From Rhizobium sp. RM (GTDB lineage: Bacteria > Pseudomonadota > Alphaproteobacteria > Rhizobiales > Rhizobiaceae), in contig NZ_JACAWV010000022.1 of the NCBI RefSeq assembly GCF_013390595.1, positions 372,001 through 436,000 on the forward strand: a stretch of DNA of 64,000 nucleotides, written 5' to 3'. Position 1 is the stretch's first letter. Each line of letters opens with the position of its first letter. The translations under genes and the position numbers were made by a program. This document shows positions 59,134 through 63,191 of the stretch, piece by piece. The notes beneath the pieces were generated by a model, which saw only the letters and a program-made list of their open reading frames with translations, did not search any database and was not told the origin of the DNA.

Positions 59134-59973
59134 CTGAAGACCGTTCCCATCGACAAGGATAACATCGACGCAGCCCACGCGCTGCTGGTCAAAGGTTTTC
59201 CGGAAAAAACGGCCTCCTTCTGGCGCGAAGGCCTGACCCGCGTCAGCGCCCATCACGAGCGCCGCAATCTCGGCAGTATCGGCCAGCTTCTGATGAAGAA
59301 GGAAGAGGCAGTCGGCGTTCTCCTGACACTCAAAAGCCGCCTGCCCGGCAGCGAGCGCCCGGTTGTCAACCTCTCGAGCTGGTATCTCGATCCATCCTGC
59401 CGCTGGTTTGCTCCGCGTATGCTGCAACTGGCATCCGCATCGGCGGATGAAACCTACACCGATCTAACACCCTCGCCCGAGGCCGCCACGCTCAATGAAA
59501 GGCTGGGGTTTACAACGGCCACGGATGTCACGCTATTCTATCCGCTGCCCCTCAAGGCCCTTCGCCCATCAGAGGCGGCAGTCGTCGACATGAGGACGGT
59601 GCCGCAGGATGCCTTTTCCCTAGATATAACGCAGATGCTGGAAGACCACCGCCGCCTAGGCTGCATTCTGGCTGCCCTTCGTGTTGATAACAGCTATCAC
59701 CCACTGGTCTTTTTGAAGACAACCACCAAGCGATTGCCCTCCGCTCGGCTGATCTATTGCGACAACCGCCATCTGGCCCAGAAAAACCTTGGCGCCATTG
59801 CCCGTTTCCTTCTGAAGCATGGGCGGATTGCCATGACCATGCCATGCCCGCAAGAGGACAAGAACAGTGGCGGCTTTGCTTTGCACAAGACTGCGACGAC
59901 ACAAGTAAAAGGCGAGTGGAACGCTCGCCTTGTTAACGAAACATATTCAGAATTGGTGTTATTACCACTCTAG
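59134..59973 (+). CDS. GNAT-like protein, apparently starting at CTG
   Basis: About 279 residues if started at CTG 59134; from the first ATG (59293) only 226. The 53 codons between read like normal protein (KTVPIDKDNIDAAHALLVKG, FPEKTASFWREGLTRV) and match the usual GNAT N-terminus. CGGAG stands 8-9 bases before CTG. No in-frame ATG, GTG or TTG exists between the upstream stop (59071) and 59293, so CTG is the best start. The body shows an acyltransferase-like pattern (GSIGQLLMKKEEAVGVLL), but the acetyl-CoA motif is not clear. It may be the acyl-transfer member of the ACP/ligase/decarboxylase cluster. Confidence 0.65.
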   Translation: MKTVPIDKDNIDAAHALLVKGFPEKTASFWREGLTRVSAHHERRNLGSIGQLLMKKEEAVGVLLTLKSRLPGSERPVVNLSSWYLDPSCRWFAPRMLQLASASADETYTDLTPSPEAATLNERLGFTTATDVTLFYPLPLKALRPSEAAVVDMRTVPQDAFSLDITQMLEDHRRLGCILAALRVDNSYHPLVFLKTTTKRLPSARLIYCDNRHLAQKNLGAIARFLLKHGRIAMTMPCPQEDKNSGGFALHKTATTQVKGEWNARLVNETYSELVLLPL

Positions 59974-60024
59974 GACGTAGTCGCGACGTGGCTTTTATCT
60001 CGATAAGAGTCAAAGATCGTTGCG

Positions 60025-60040
60025 GTCTCGAAATTGAGAC
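60025..60040. promoter_or_regulatory. Inverted repeat in the GNAT-ACP gap
   Basis: GTCTC, then 6 bases, then GAGAC: a perfect 5-bp inverted repeat 88-103 bases before the ACP ATG. Possibly an operator of a second promoter; weak evidence. Confidence 0.35.
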
Positions 60041-60127
60041 AGACCATTTAAATCGCCTGCCGGTGTTGCGCAGACAAGAGTGAATCCCGACTTACATGAG
60101 GTAACGACGGGAAATCGGAGACTTGAT

Positions 60128-60388
60128 ATGCTTGCAGCGAAATTGAACGAGCGCGATGTTGCGGAAACGATTTACGACTATCTCGCACAACGTTTTCCAG
60201 CATCTGCGCCCTTCAGCGCCGATACCCCGCTTCTCGAAGGTGGTGTGATCGATTCTCTCGGTTTCCTGGAACTCATGGTGTTTCTGGGCGAGACGTTTGG
60301 CATCCTGCTTGAGGATGAACATTTCACCCCTGACAACCTCGGCACGCCCGCAGAACTCATCGCTTTCGTCGTGCGGGAAAAGAGATGA
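60128..60388 (+). CDS. Acyl carrier protein
   Basis: An 86-residue four-helix carrier protein with the phosphopantetheine site GGVIDSLGFLELM; Ser43 is the attachment residue. It is acidic, as are most ACPs, but clearly not AcpP of fatty acid synthesis. Start ATG 60128 has GGAG seven bases upstream; a GTG at 60080 is less likely. The stop overlaps the next ATG by four bases (ATGA), giving translational coupling to the ligase. It would carry an activated acyl or aminoacyl group. Confidence 0.9.
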   Translation: MLAAKLNERDVAETIYDYLAQRFPASAPFSADTPLLEGGVIDSLGFLELMVFLGETFGILLEDEHFTPDNLGTPAELIAFVVREKR

Positions 60389-61905
60389 AACCATCCTACC
60401 TCCTGCATCATCTGCTGGACGCGCAAGCGGACAATGACCGCCAGGCGCTTGCCCACAATGGAAAATCGCTGACGTACCGCGAATTTGCCTTGGCAACGGC
60501 GCGCTGTGCGGCAGCGCTGCGGGAGAAGGGATTGCAGCGCGGCGACCGTGTGGTCGTCTTCTTGCCACGCGGCCTTGAGGAATGCTGGTCGATCTTCGGT
60601 GTCAGCGCCGCCTCCGGCGTCTTCGTCCCGGTCAATGCGTTGCTGAAGGCTCCTCAAATCCGCCATATCGTGCAGGATTGCGGCGCAAAACTCGTTATCG
60701 GCAGCACCGAGATGCGTGCGGAACTGGACGCCGCCCTGACAGGGCTTTCGGATGTCACGGTTCTTCTGGCTGAAGAGATCGACGCCCGTCAGGATCTCGG
60801 CACAAAACCCTCTGCCGCAATTGGCGAGGACCTTGCCGCAATCCTCTATACATCGGGCTCAACCGGTTCGCCCAAGGGCGTCATGCTTTCGCACCGGAAC
60901 CTTCTGGCTGGTGCGCGCATCGTACGCACCTATCTGGAAATCACCGAAAGAGATCGTATCCTTTCGATCCTGCCTTTCAGCTTCGACTATGGCCTGAACC
61001 AGCTGCTTACCGCGGTGGAACAGGGCGCGGTCACGGTGATCTCGACGTTCAGACTGGGCGACGATATCGTCAAGGCATTGCGTGACAACGAGATTACTGC
61101 ACTTGCAGGCGTGCCGACCGTGTGGGCGATCCTGACGCGTGCCGCACCGCTTCTTGCCAAAACGCCGCTGCCGCATCTGCGTTACGTCACCAATTCCGGC
61201 GGGCGTGTTCCCTCCGAAACCGTCAAGGCACTGCGGGACAAGCTGCCCGACACGAAAATCTTCCTGATGTATGGTCTGACCGAAGCATTCCGGTCCACTT
61301 ACCTGCCACCGGAAGAAATCGACATCCGCCCGACCTCCATCGGCAAGGCCATTCCGGAATGCGAGATCTTCATTGTCACCGCCGAAGGACAACGCGCAAA
61401 ACCCGGTGAACCCGGAATTCTCGTTCATCGCGGCCCGACGGTATCCATGGGATACTGGAACCGGCCGGAAGACACCGCCAAGGTGCTGCGACCTCACCCC
61501 TTCATTCCCGTCACCCAGGGCGGCGAAACGGTATGTTACTCCGGCGATCTGGCGATTGAAGACGAAGACGGCTTTTTCAGTTTCGTTGCCCGCAATGACG
61601 CGATGATCAAATCATCCGGTTATCGCATCAGCCCGACCGAGGTGGAAGAAAGCCTGATGTCGACAGGTCTCTTCCATCAGGTTGCGGTGATTGGCCTACC
61701 AGACCCCTTCGCGGGGGAAAAGGTGCATGCCGTGGCAACAGCAGCCAACCAGAACATCGATGTTTCCGCGGCACTCAGAAAAGCTGCGGAAATGCTCGCC
61801 CCCTTCATGATCCCGCGCGCCATTGAACTGGTCGATCAGCTTCCGGTGACAGCAAACGGCAAGGTCGATTATCGCGCCTTGGTGCGCGAACGGACAGACA
61901 AATAG
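60385..61905 (+). CDS. AMP-forming acyl/aminoacyl-activating ligase (ANL family)
   Basis: A 506-residue adenylate-forming enzyme. Core motifs: ILYTSGSTGSPKGVMLSHRN (A3), MYGLTEAFRSTYLPP (A5), YSGDLAIEDEDGF (A7), RNDAMIKSSGYRIS (A8) and TANGKVDYRAL with the catalytic Lys (A10). No fused carrier or condensation domain. It resembles the acyl-CoA ligases found with exosortase clusters (ligase_PEP type), but no exosortase is in the window. Its direct overlap with the ACP gene suggests it loads that ACP. Substrate unknown; with a PLP decarboxylase next door an amino acid is possible. Confidence 0.9.
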   Translation: MKPSYLLHHLLDAQADNDRQALAHNGKSLTYREFALATARCAAALREKGLQRGDRVVVFLPRGLEECWSIFGVSAASGVFVPVNALLKAPQIRHIVQDCGAKLVIGSTEMRAELDAALTGLSDVTVLLAEEIDARQDLGTKPSAAIGEDLAAILYTSGSTGSPKGVMLSHRNLLAGARIVRTYLEITERDRILSILPFSFDYGLNQLLTAVEQGAVTVISTFRLGDDIVKALRDNEITALAGVPTVWAILTRAAPLLAKTPLPHLRYVTNSGGRVPSETVKALRDKLPDTKIFLMYGLTEAFRSTYLPPEEIDIRPTSIGKAIPECEIFIVTAEGQRAKPGEPGILVHRGPTVSMGYWNRPEDTAKVLRPHPFIPVTQGGETVCYSGDLAIEDEDGFFSFVARNDAMIKSSGYRISPTEVEESLMSTGLFHQVAVIGLPDPFAGEKVHAVATAANQNIDVSAALRKAAEMLAPFMIPRAIELVDQLPVTANGKVDYRALVRERTDK

Positions 61906-61913
61906 ACGGTACG

Positions 61914-63191
61914 ATGGCGCCCACGGACAAGACTGCAAACCACGGCCCGGACATTGCTTCCGCATGGTTCGAGGTAAAGGGAAACGATCTTTTTGCCAGT
62001 GGCGTGCCGATTGGCGACATCGTTGCCAGGACCGGAACACCCGCCTTCATCTACGACGCCGCTGTCATGCGCCGGACCTATGCTGATCTGCAGGCGGCGC
62101 TGAACGGGTTTGCCGACATCTATTATTCGGTCAAAGCCAACCCGCTGCCAGCCGTCATCGCGCTATTTCATGGCCAGGGTGCTGGTGCCGAGATCGCGTC
62201 GATCGGCGAATATCACGCTGCACTGAAGGCTGGAGTCCCGCCTCAACACATCATCTTTGCCGGTCCCGGCAAACGTGAAAGCGAGTTGCGTGCCGTGATC
62301 GATGGCGGCATCGGCGAGATACACGTCGAGAGCGCTGAAGAAATCGCCCGCCTCAAGGCCATCGGCAAGCCGGTCAAGGTTTCGATCCGCATCAACCCGG
62401 TGCCGGATGCGCAGGCCGGTGCCATGCGTATGGGCGGCAAGGCGACCGCTTTCGGTTTCGATGAGGAAGAACTCGAAACCATTCTGCCGCTTTTCAATAC
62501 AGCGCCGAATGTCGATCTCGTCGGCATCCACGTTTATGGCGGCACGCAGATTCTCGATGCGGACGCACTTGTCTCCCAGTGGAGACATGCTGTCACGCTC
62601 GGCGGCCGCGTTGCGGCCATGCTCGGCAAACCGCTTGAAACAATTGATCTCGGCGGCGGATTGGGCATCCCCTATTTCACCGGGGAGACGCCGCTTGACC
62701 TCAGCGTTGTCGCGTCTGCGATTGCCGATCTCAAAGCCATGCTTGCCGGCGATCCGAACCTTGCGGCGACACGGGTGATTGTCGAACCCGGCCGTTATCT
62801 GGTTGGACCGGCGGGCATTTATGTCTGCGAGATCAATTCGGTGAAAGTCTCGCGCGGTACCACATTCCTTGTCACCGATGGTGGCATGCATCATCATCTG
62901 GCTGCATCGGGCAATCTCGGCCAGATCGTCAAGCGCAATTATCCCATCGTGGCTCCAGCCAGGATGCGCGAGACATGCGATGAAACCGCAACTGTCGTCG
63001 GCCCGCTCTGCACCCCGCTCGACACCCTCGCCCGCAACGCCGCCCTGCCAAAACTGAAGGCTGGCGACCTAGTCGCTTTCCTGCAATCGGGCGCCTATGG
63101 CGCCAGCGCAAGCCCTGCTGGCTTCCTCAGCCACCCCCATGCGACGGAAGTTCTGGTGGACAATGGCGCGTTTGAGGCGATCGAGCGTTAG
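61914..63191 (+). CDS. Fold-type III PLP-dependent decarboxylase
   Basis: A 425-residue alanine-racemase/DAP-decarboxylase-fold enzyme. The PLP Lys is Lys74 in YYSVKANPLP. HVYGGTQ, DLGGGLGIPY and EPGRYLVG are PLP-phosphate motifs, and GPLCTPLDTL has the active-site Cys from the partner subunit. SGAYGASAS is near the end. The group includes LysA, ornithine/diaminobutyrate decarboxylases and the exosortase-associated branch. It starts eight bases after the ligase stop, so it is in the same operon. Substrate not known; a carrier-bound amino acid is a reasonable idea (see findings). Confidence 0.9.
   Translation: MAPTDKTANHGPDIASAWFEVKGNDLFASGVPIGDIVARTGTPAFIYDAAVMRRTYADLQAALNGFADIYYSVKANPLPAVIALFHGQGAGAEIASIGEYHAALKAGVPPQHIIFAGPGKRESELRAVIDGGIGEIHVESAEEIARLKAIGKPVKVSIRINPVPDAQAGAMRMGGKATAFGFDEEELETILPLFNTAPNVDLVGIHVYGGTQILDADALVSQWRHAVTLGGRVAAMLGKPLETIDLGGGLGIPYFTGETPLDLSVVASAIADLKAMLAGDPNLAATRVIVEPGRYLVGPAGIYVCEINSVKVSRGTTFLVTDGGMHHHLAASGNLGQIVKRNYPIVAPARMRETCDETATVVGPLCTPLDTLARNAALPKLKAGDLVAFLQSGAYGASASPAGFLSHPHATEVLVDNGAFEAIER

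Follow-up and report, generated by a model that had tools for sequence, protein, structure and literature searches.

The vicenistatin pathway uses a stand-alone adenylation enzyme (VinN), a stand-alone acyl carrier protein (ACP; VinL) and a pyridoxal phosphate (PLP)-dependent decarboxylase (VinO), which acts only after the carrier has been loaded (PMC11284099); FlvN of fluvirucin biosynthesis is the counterpart of VinN for aspartate. In the AFC-BC11 system of Burkholderia, AfcP makes beta-alanine from aspartate on the carrier AfcK and condensation domains are absent (PMC12186527), and in butirosin biosynthesis BtrK decarboxylates glutamate carried on BtrI (PMC7857480). In SB-203208 biosynthesis (SbzB/SbzG/SbzC and SbzL/SbzI), stand-alone adenylating enzymes load the carriers, from which acyltransferases of the GNAT family move the acyl groups; one of these, SbzC, is similar to mycothiol acetyltransferase, and with it a coenzyme A (CoA) donor failed while the carrier protein worked (PMC6331615). 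Here we describe a related locus of Rhizobium sp. RM, in which genes for a GNAT, an ACP, an AMP-forming ligase and a PLP decarboxylase follow one another. The window, the whole stretch of DNA analysed, comprises 64,000 nucleotides of contig NZ_JACAWV010000022.1 (assembly GCF_013390595.1; genome of 5.59 Mb in 26 contigs).

With the vicenistatin system this locus shares the three kinds of protein and the Asp, Ser and Arg pocket residues of VinN; it differs in having no polyketide synthase (PKS), no second aminoacylation enzyme VinM and no VinK, and in having a GNAT as its fourth gene (VinO was compared by description). AfcQ, AfcK and AfcP also combine a VinN-type ligase, a carrier and a decarboxylase without condensation domains, but AfcQ iterates to a beta-alanine trimer that a fatty acyl-AMP ligase caps, where our locus has a single GNAT (AfcQ and AfcP were compared by description). 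SbzC and SbzI, also compared by description, differ in coming from a Streptomyces cluster without such a decarboxylase step. The exosortase A-associated ligase and decarboxylase sets (TIGR03098/TIGR03099) are of the same families, and the exosortase-type rows compared have the Arg and the CTPLD motif discussed below; our locus differs in scoring under both family cut-offs, in its extra GNAT, and in having no exosortase in the genome and no adjoining glycan cluster. With the butirosin system it shares a decarboxylase that is closest to BtrK among solved structures, whereas BtrH, described as papain-like, is not a GNAT. The initial annotation of this DNA had taken butirosin as its precedent, with the reservation that BtrJ, the butirosin loading enzyme, is of a different family from the ligase here. 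The likeness to BtrK held up, but closer precedents with a loader of the same family, VinN/VinL/VinO (PMC11284099) and AfcQ/AfcK/AfcP (PMC12186527), had been overlooked.

On balance we favour reading the four genes as a portable cassette for loading, decarboxylation and transfer. The ligase would adenylate an alpha-amino dicarboxylic acid (likeliest L-aspartate, or else glutamate or 3-methylaspartate) at its side-chain carboxyl and load it onto the phosphopantetheine of the ACP; the BtrK-type decarboxylase would strip the carrier-bound acid of its free alpha-carboxyl to leave beta-alanyl-ACP or gamma-aminobutyryl (GABA)-ACP; and the tandem GNAT may then move the omega-aminoacyl group from the ACP onto an amine or hydroxyl of an acceptor. 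We infer the first two steps from residue-level likeness to the tested enzymes of the VinN/VinL/VinO and AfcQ/AfcK/AfcP systems, and the third from gene association, one natural fusion and the tested analogues SbzC and SbzI, with the loss of a CoA-binding loop motif as a weaker help. Each half of this pathway is known chemistry. A literature search that included the available text of PMC12493201, PMC11284099, PMC7756342, PMC12186527, PMC7857480, PMC6331615 and PMC2922099, with most subscription journals outside it, gave no description of the combination, which lacks PKS and non-ribosomal peptide synthetase (NRPS) and brings a GNAT family of its own.

Gene content and family assignments

The features of the locus are as follows.

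59134..59973, forward strand: gene for a tandem GNAT-fold acyltransferase, predicted carrier-protein-dependent transferase (CTG start, AlphaFold model, carrier-linked family)
59398..59424, forward strand: degenerate pyrophosphate-loop segment CRWFAPRML in the GNAT, with no fit to Q/R-x-x-G-x-G/A and two residues shorter than in loop-bearing relatives
60128..60388, forward strand: gene for a stand-alone ACP (PF00550, alignment with relatives)
60254..60256, forward strand: Ser codon of D-S-L-G in the ACP, the expected phosphopantetheine site, invariant in 16/16 aligned ACPs
60385..61905, forward strand: gene for an AMP-forming ligase of the VinN/TIGR03098 type, predicted amino-dicarboxylic acid loader of the ACP (family scores, VinN alignment)
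60985..60987, forward strand: ligase Asp201 codon, aligned to VinN Asp230 (amino-group contact)
61195..61197, forward strand: ligase Ser271 codon, aligned to VinN Ser299
61291..61293, forward strand: ligase Arg303 codon, aligned to VinN Arg331 and AfcQ Arg311 (alpha-carboxylate contact)
61914..63191, forward strand: gene for a PLP decarboxylase (fold type III, BtrK/TIGR03099 type) with the ACP-bound acid as its predicted substrate (family and structure-sequence scores)
63000..63023, forward strand: GPLCTPLD motif of the decarboxylase, by alignment (GPLCTPED in BtrK; GPVCETGD and GPICETGD in two compared diaminopimelate decarboxylases)

All four open reading frames (ORFs) are intact and lie on the forward strand in the order GNAT, ACP, ligase, decarboxylase. 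The ACP and ligase genes overlap by 4 bases (ATGA) and the decarboxylase gene starts 8 bases after the ligase gene, an arrangement the initial annotation had described correctly. Pfam assigned the ACP to PF00550 (21.6 bits; cut-off 20.8), the ligase to AMP-binding (273.9 bits) and the decarboxylase to Orn_Arg_deC_N (151.5 bits). In NCBIfam the ligase scored 568.5 bits against TIGR03098, the exosortase A-associated ligase (cut-off 592.35), and the decarboxylase 424.5 bits against TIGR03099, the exosortase A-associated decarboxylase (cut-off 478.45). The best NCBIfam name for the ACP was the cispentacin ACP AmcB, at 40.7 bits against a cut-off of 80. The GNAT protein had no Pfam or NCBIfam match up to an E value of 0.1.

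Two other identities were considered and rejected. A link to ornithine lipids through the NCBIfam model ACP_for_OlsHI reached 37 bits against a cut-off of 130; the OlsH step is ACP-independent, and the word 'decarboxylase' is absent from the available text of that paper (PMC12493201). A role in defence was rejected as none of the four proteins matched PADLOC at an E value of 0.001.

The ligase resembles VinN at its substrate pocket

A scan of genome contigs with the decarboxylase gave 163 relatives; the analysis used the 80 best loci (the 80 loci below). Genes in these relatives were called with a simple codon-score caller and profile searches, and several of the loci are contigs of metagenome-assembled genomes (MAGs).

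Compared with solved structures over its full length, the ligase matched VinN (3wvn, 217.7 bits) best among single adenylation enzymes; the LgrA rows that scored above VinN sum two domains. Over the 171-residue pocket region VinN scored 88.9 bits, the next structure 63.4 bits and the acyl-CoA synthetase 8wev 49.3 bits. Asp201, Ser271 and Arg303 of the ligase align to Asp230, Ser299 and Arg331 of VinN, and all three pairs agree with a constant crystal-chain offset of 16 residues. The numbers Asp230 and Ser299, and the role of Ser299, are presumed here. The numbering of Arg331 is that of PMC12186527, and an amine-binding Asp, without a number, is described for VinN-family enzymes in PMC11284099. 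AfcQ, which has the same Arg (Arg311), loads L-Asp via the side chain, which the authors of that study attribute to the alpha-carboxylate being held by the Arg (PMC12186527).

Arg was found at the VinN Arg331 position in all 75 scorable ligases of the 80 loci (77 ligase matches, two of them without that stretch), as well as in 18/18 further survey ligases. Asp201 is invariant in 32/32 aligned ligases and Ser271 is Thr in some rows; GLTEAFR-x-T is invariant across the same 32 rows, exosortase types included. By contrast, the ligases that stand beside the GNAT family in sets of ACP and short-chain dehydrogenase/reductase (SDR) without a decarboxylase have Val at the Arg position (15/15 scorable; 16 tested). 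Co-occurrence of the Arg with the decarboxylase is as expected if the Arg binds the carboxylate group destined for removal by the decarboxylase, and the contrast between the two groups is suggestive of such a role. The ligase would most likely adenylate an amino-dicarboxylic acid and load it by its side-chain carboxyl.

The decarboxylase is closest to BtrK

BtrK was the best match of the decarboxylase among solved structures (7ru7, 280 bits; 2j66, 279 bits), followed by diaminopimelate decarboxylase at 192 bits. The substrate-loop motif is GPLCTPLD here and GPLCTPED in BtrK; at the same place Aquifex LysA and the LysA-like copy of this genome both read CETGD. CTPLD was present in 80/80 loci and in 16 of 17 survey decarboxylases, and LysA rows formed a separate long, fully supported branch of the decarboxylase tree. 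The score against the lysA model was 270.5 bits, under the cut-off of 297.9, and CTPLD replaces CE.GD; both set the protein apart from LysA (diaminopimelate decarboxylase). Together, the ligase, ACP and decarboxylase would most likely make beta-alanyl- or GABA-ACP, and the motifs seen in the two enzymes appear to speak against a CoA-only ligase and against a decarboxylase of free lysine-type acids.

The GNAT family is associated with carrier proteins

An AlphaFold (AF2) model of the first protein of the cassette had a mean confidence (pLDDT) of 92.4 and the form of a tandem GNAT, and on this model we are confident of the predicted fold. A fold search matched it to 3ddd (Z 13.8 over 245 residues, root-mean-square deviation 4.8) and MAB_4324 (Z 13.4 over 250 residues, deviation 4.8), and further to the tandem GNATs Eis, MshD and a clostridial glucosamine N-acetyltransferase. 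Single GNAT domains scored alike (for instance 4zbg, Z 14.2 over 139 residues). Sequence search found no relative of the GNAT in the PDB, and the structures of FeeM, MbtK and SbzI were not among the fold-search matches listed.

In ordinary GNATs, the pyrophosphate loop that binds acyl-CoA has the motif Q/R-x-x-G-x-G/A. The segment R-W-F-A-P-R of the cassette GNAT does not fit it, nor does any of 24 cassette rows; the motif fits 1/40 survey rows near a carrier (the fusion protein of locus L112) and 8/32 survey rows without one. Eight GNAT relatives have one or two extra residues in the loop segment. The GNAT of L110 does not fit the motif, and those of L241 and L242 fit despite an alignment gap.

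Surveys with a GNAT family profile found the family in at least 46/398 genomes of the phylum and at least 52/397 of the order, both lower bounds since six or fewer candidates were scored per genome; a class survey gave a match in 12/385 genomes. We pooled 60 neighbourhoods from the phylum and order surveys with 12 earlier ones (11 from the class survey and one, L111, from a survey of the source genus). Where the GNAT scored at least 200 bits (44 loci), a carrier protein lay within 6 kb in 37 and within 300 bp in 28. The weaker relatives below 200 bits served as the control, genome-wide carrier density being only roughly known because the PF00550 search of our own genome misses weak ACPs, including that of the cassette. 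Only 3 of these 28 loci had a carrier within 6 kb, two of the three being ligase/decarboxylase sets whose GNAT is broken (L111) or divergent (L224).

The 37 carrier-linked GNATs fell into three partner sets: 16 with an ACP, a VinN-type ligase and a decarboxylase; 16 with an ACP and another AMP-ligase, of which 15 had an SDR and 9 an amino acid:carrier protein (aa:CP) ligase in the stretch; and 5, all from one genus, with an aa:CP ligase and a carrier. In L112 (548-3736, reverse strand) a single ORF of 1062 amino acids joins an AMP-ligase, a carrier domain and a GNAT. A tree was built from 93 GNAT rows, with the partial L022, L034 and L111 excluded. In it the GNATs of the main cassette group formed one clade (35 rows, support 100/98) within a carrier-linked clade (62 rows, 100/99; five without a nearby carrier), and the L112 fusion fell outside the main carrier-linked clade. 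The state of standing beside the trio of ACP, ligase and decarboxylase requires four changes on this tree, each forced by well supported branches; GNATs of this family have thus been coupled to the trio more than once.

Amino acid:carrier protein ligases and DUF1839

The link of the GNAT to aa:CP ligases was counted over 20 loci with a full ligase (>400 bits), a set biased in that most of its loci were recruited through the GNAT. The GNAT was present in 14 of these, DUF1839 directly after the ligase in 4, neither in 2 and both in none. Counted from the ligase side, the 7 genomes over the aa:CP cut-off comprised 4 with DUF1839 and no GNAT, 2 with neither and 1 with the GNAT; at 1/7, the link is only occasional. 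Three weaker aa:CP-like loci, L135-L137 (116-138 bits), were left out of the count and had neither GNAT nor DUF1839. The five loci from one genus have the GNAT directly after the aa:CP ligase, the position that DUF1839 holds elsewhere. This suggests that both may be acceptor-side transferases of aa:CP ligase systems. Profile comparison places DUF1839 outside the GNATs, and one of four DUF1839 proteins (L129, L130, L131, L133) had a sub-threshold BtrH_N match.

We put forward tentatively, at somewhat less than even confidence, that this hitherto undescribed tandem-GNAT family consists of carrier-protein-dependent (amino)acyltransferases serving at least three unrelated loading systems, namely VinN-type ligases with a decarboxylase, ACP/AMP-ligase/SDR sets and aa:CP ligases. 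In the one genus where it occupies the slot of DUF1839, the GNAT would also supply the acceptor step that those orphan ligases lack. The family would give Alphaproteobacteria a route to amides that needs no condensation domains. The family may then be the transfer step both for the cassette and for some aa:CP ligases, whose acceptor is only predicted, in the available text of a 2010 note, as amino-acid transfer to surface sugars.

The source genome also carries an aa:CP ligase (contig C23, 349000-349929, locus L131, 508.7 bits), which is accompanied by DUF1839 and a carrier protein.

Distribution of the gene set and of exosortase

All four genes occurred together, with the GNAT first, in 31/80 loci. 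Thirteen of these are Agrobacterium-type and 18 come from elsewhere: Devosia, Xanthobacteraceae, Bradyrhizobium, Reyranella, Pseudolabrys, further Hyphomicrobiales, Henriciella, one actinomycete and one acidobacterial MAG. The GNAT lies downstream in two loci with ACP and ligase (Aminobacter and Aquamicrobium) and in two with ligase and decarboxylase on planctomycete contigs, where the ACP side is cut off; a further 12 are cut by contig ends or have a part missing within the set distance. The genes flanking the four-gene cassette vary between groups, so that it is a unit and not an accident of one chromosome. Within the source genus the GNAT was found in 24/39 genomes, its own included, with one copy interrupted. 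The initial annotation had asked whether this gene order is conserved beyond near relatives, and it is.

Two four-gene cassettes (L064, L080) lie in a single Henriciella MAG. The interrupted GNAT is that of L111 (6537-7435, reverse strand), where the matches to ACP, ligase and decarboxylase run over the length of each.

The absence of exosortase, NRPS and PKS genes noted for the window extended to the source genome: there were no matches to exosortase (PF09721), and no multi-module NRPS or PKS was seen, with PF00550 found at five places, the longest ORF among them 582 amino acids, in a search that misses weak ACPs such as the cassette's own. We also sought exosortase in the genomes of 24 relatives, several of them MAGs that may be incomplete, a search the annotation had suggested. 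It was absent from 15 of the 16 four-gene genomes tested, the exception being the acidobacterial L071. Among the other genomes it was absent from those of L039, L040, L036, L044 and L059 and present in those of L062, L083 and L085. The set thus also exists outside exosortase genomes as a portable unit. For a ligase/decarboxylase/ACP set that NCBIfam names only through its exosortase link, the pathway proposed here would supply a specific chemistry, side-chain loading followed by on-carrier decarboxylation.

In Methylobacteriaceae the trio without the GNAT (L041, L044, L045, L049, L051 and others) often follows ATP-grasp/Alpha-E and transglutaminase-like clusters (one member annotated per cluster). 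A different GNAT-like protein lies just upstream of the ACP in L059 (7129-8154; Labilithrix, sub-threshold PF13527 match) and in L062 (4777-5817; an acidobacterial exosortase locus), where it belongs to the same protein cluster.

Weighing the proposed pathway against alternatives

Several observations count against the proposed cassette or against parts of it. In 33/80 loci, foremost in Methylobacteriaceae but also in exosortase types, the trio occurs without a GNAT of this family, and the neighbourhood of the cassette offers no conserved acceptor gene. In the decarboxylase tree the branch of BtrK is long and its placement is not firm, the present data cannot tell Asp from Glu as the ligase substrate, and the Val-bearing ligases are more remote from VinN, so their contrast with the Arg-bearing ones is not a clean control. 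For seven of the 44 GNATs scoring at least 200 bits, no carrier lies within 6 kb. The loop motif is also lacking in 24/32 survey GNAT rows without a nearby carrier, and the carrier-fused GNAT of L112 retains it (R-G-W-G-V-A); loop loss therefore neither proves an ACP donor nor is required for one and, judged from the aligned rows, is older than the carrier link. The initial annotation had proposed that an amino acid is loaded on the ACP, decarboxylated there and passed on through the GNAT. This logic fits the VinN-type Arg, the BtrK-type motif and the carrier-tied GNAT family, but the use of an ACP donor by the GNAT, argued by analogy, and the acceptor are still matters that we infer.

Loading and decarboxylation could proceed as proposed and the GNAT could instead acylate beta-alanyl- or GABA-ACP at its free amine with an acyl-CoA as donor, a protecting step in which the ACP is the acceptor. 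Such a cap is known from butirosin biosynthesis, where the carrier-bound amine receives a glutamyl group. VinM caps the corresponding amine in the vicenistatin pathway (PMC11284099), and most GNATs do use acyl-CoA (PMC6331615). We nevertheless regard capping as quite unlikely: the cassette GNATs lack the CoA loop motif, the locus has no further gene to release the product, and the family also stands beside aa:CP ligases and ACP/ligase/SDR sets without a decarboxylase, where no omega-amine is expected. The same chemistry might also serve a different end, aminoacyl decoration of a cell-surface polysaccharide, as presumably in exosortase/exopolysaccharide loci, with the alphaproteobacterial form reduced and its glycan genes elsewhere. 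Glycosyltransferase and O-glycan ligase genes do occur in exosortase-type loci that share the ligase and decarboxylase, and the 2010 prediction for aa:CP ligase systems points in this direction, but the flanks of the four-gene cassette vary by group and include no conserved glycan gene, and we think this acceptor unlikely.

On a third reading the genes are mere neighbours with unlinked activities: a ligase that makes acyl-CoA, a decarboxylase of the lysine/ornithine type and an acetyltransferase of the ordinary kind. The curated name of TIGR03098 is that of an acyl-CoA ligase, the decarboxylase has its sub-cut-off score against lysA, and over the full ligase the acyl-CoA synthetase 8wev reached 208.8 bits, only 9 behind VinN, so that the full-length score alone is undecided. 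A chance neighbourhood is hard to reconcile with the recurrence of the four genes amid differing flanks, with the ATGA overlap, or with the VinN-type Arg and BtrK-type motif, and a lysA-like copy with CETGD is already present in the genome; we consider this reading highly improbable. The load–decarboxylate–transfer cassette is the reading we retain.

Translation starts and upstream regions

The ORF of the ACP opens at a GTG at 60080, and relatives align from about the ATG at 60128. Conserved blocks are present upstream of the 13 Agrobacterium-type copies, none of them assignable to a known regulatory motif. The GNAT start codon is CTG at 59134; among 12 further close Agrobacterium-type copies it is CTG in 10 and GTG in 2, and a GGAG/GGGAG-like site lies upstream of the start in the close copies. 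The more distant copy of Agrobacterium sp. L019 has CTT at this position.

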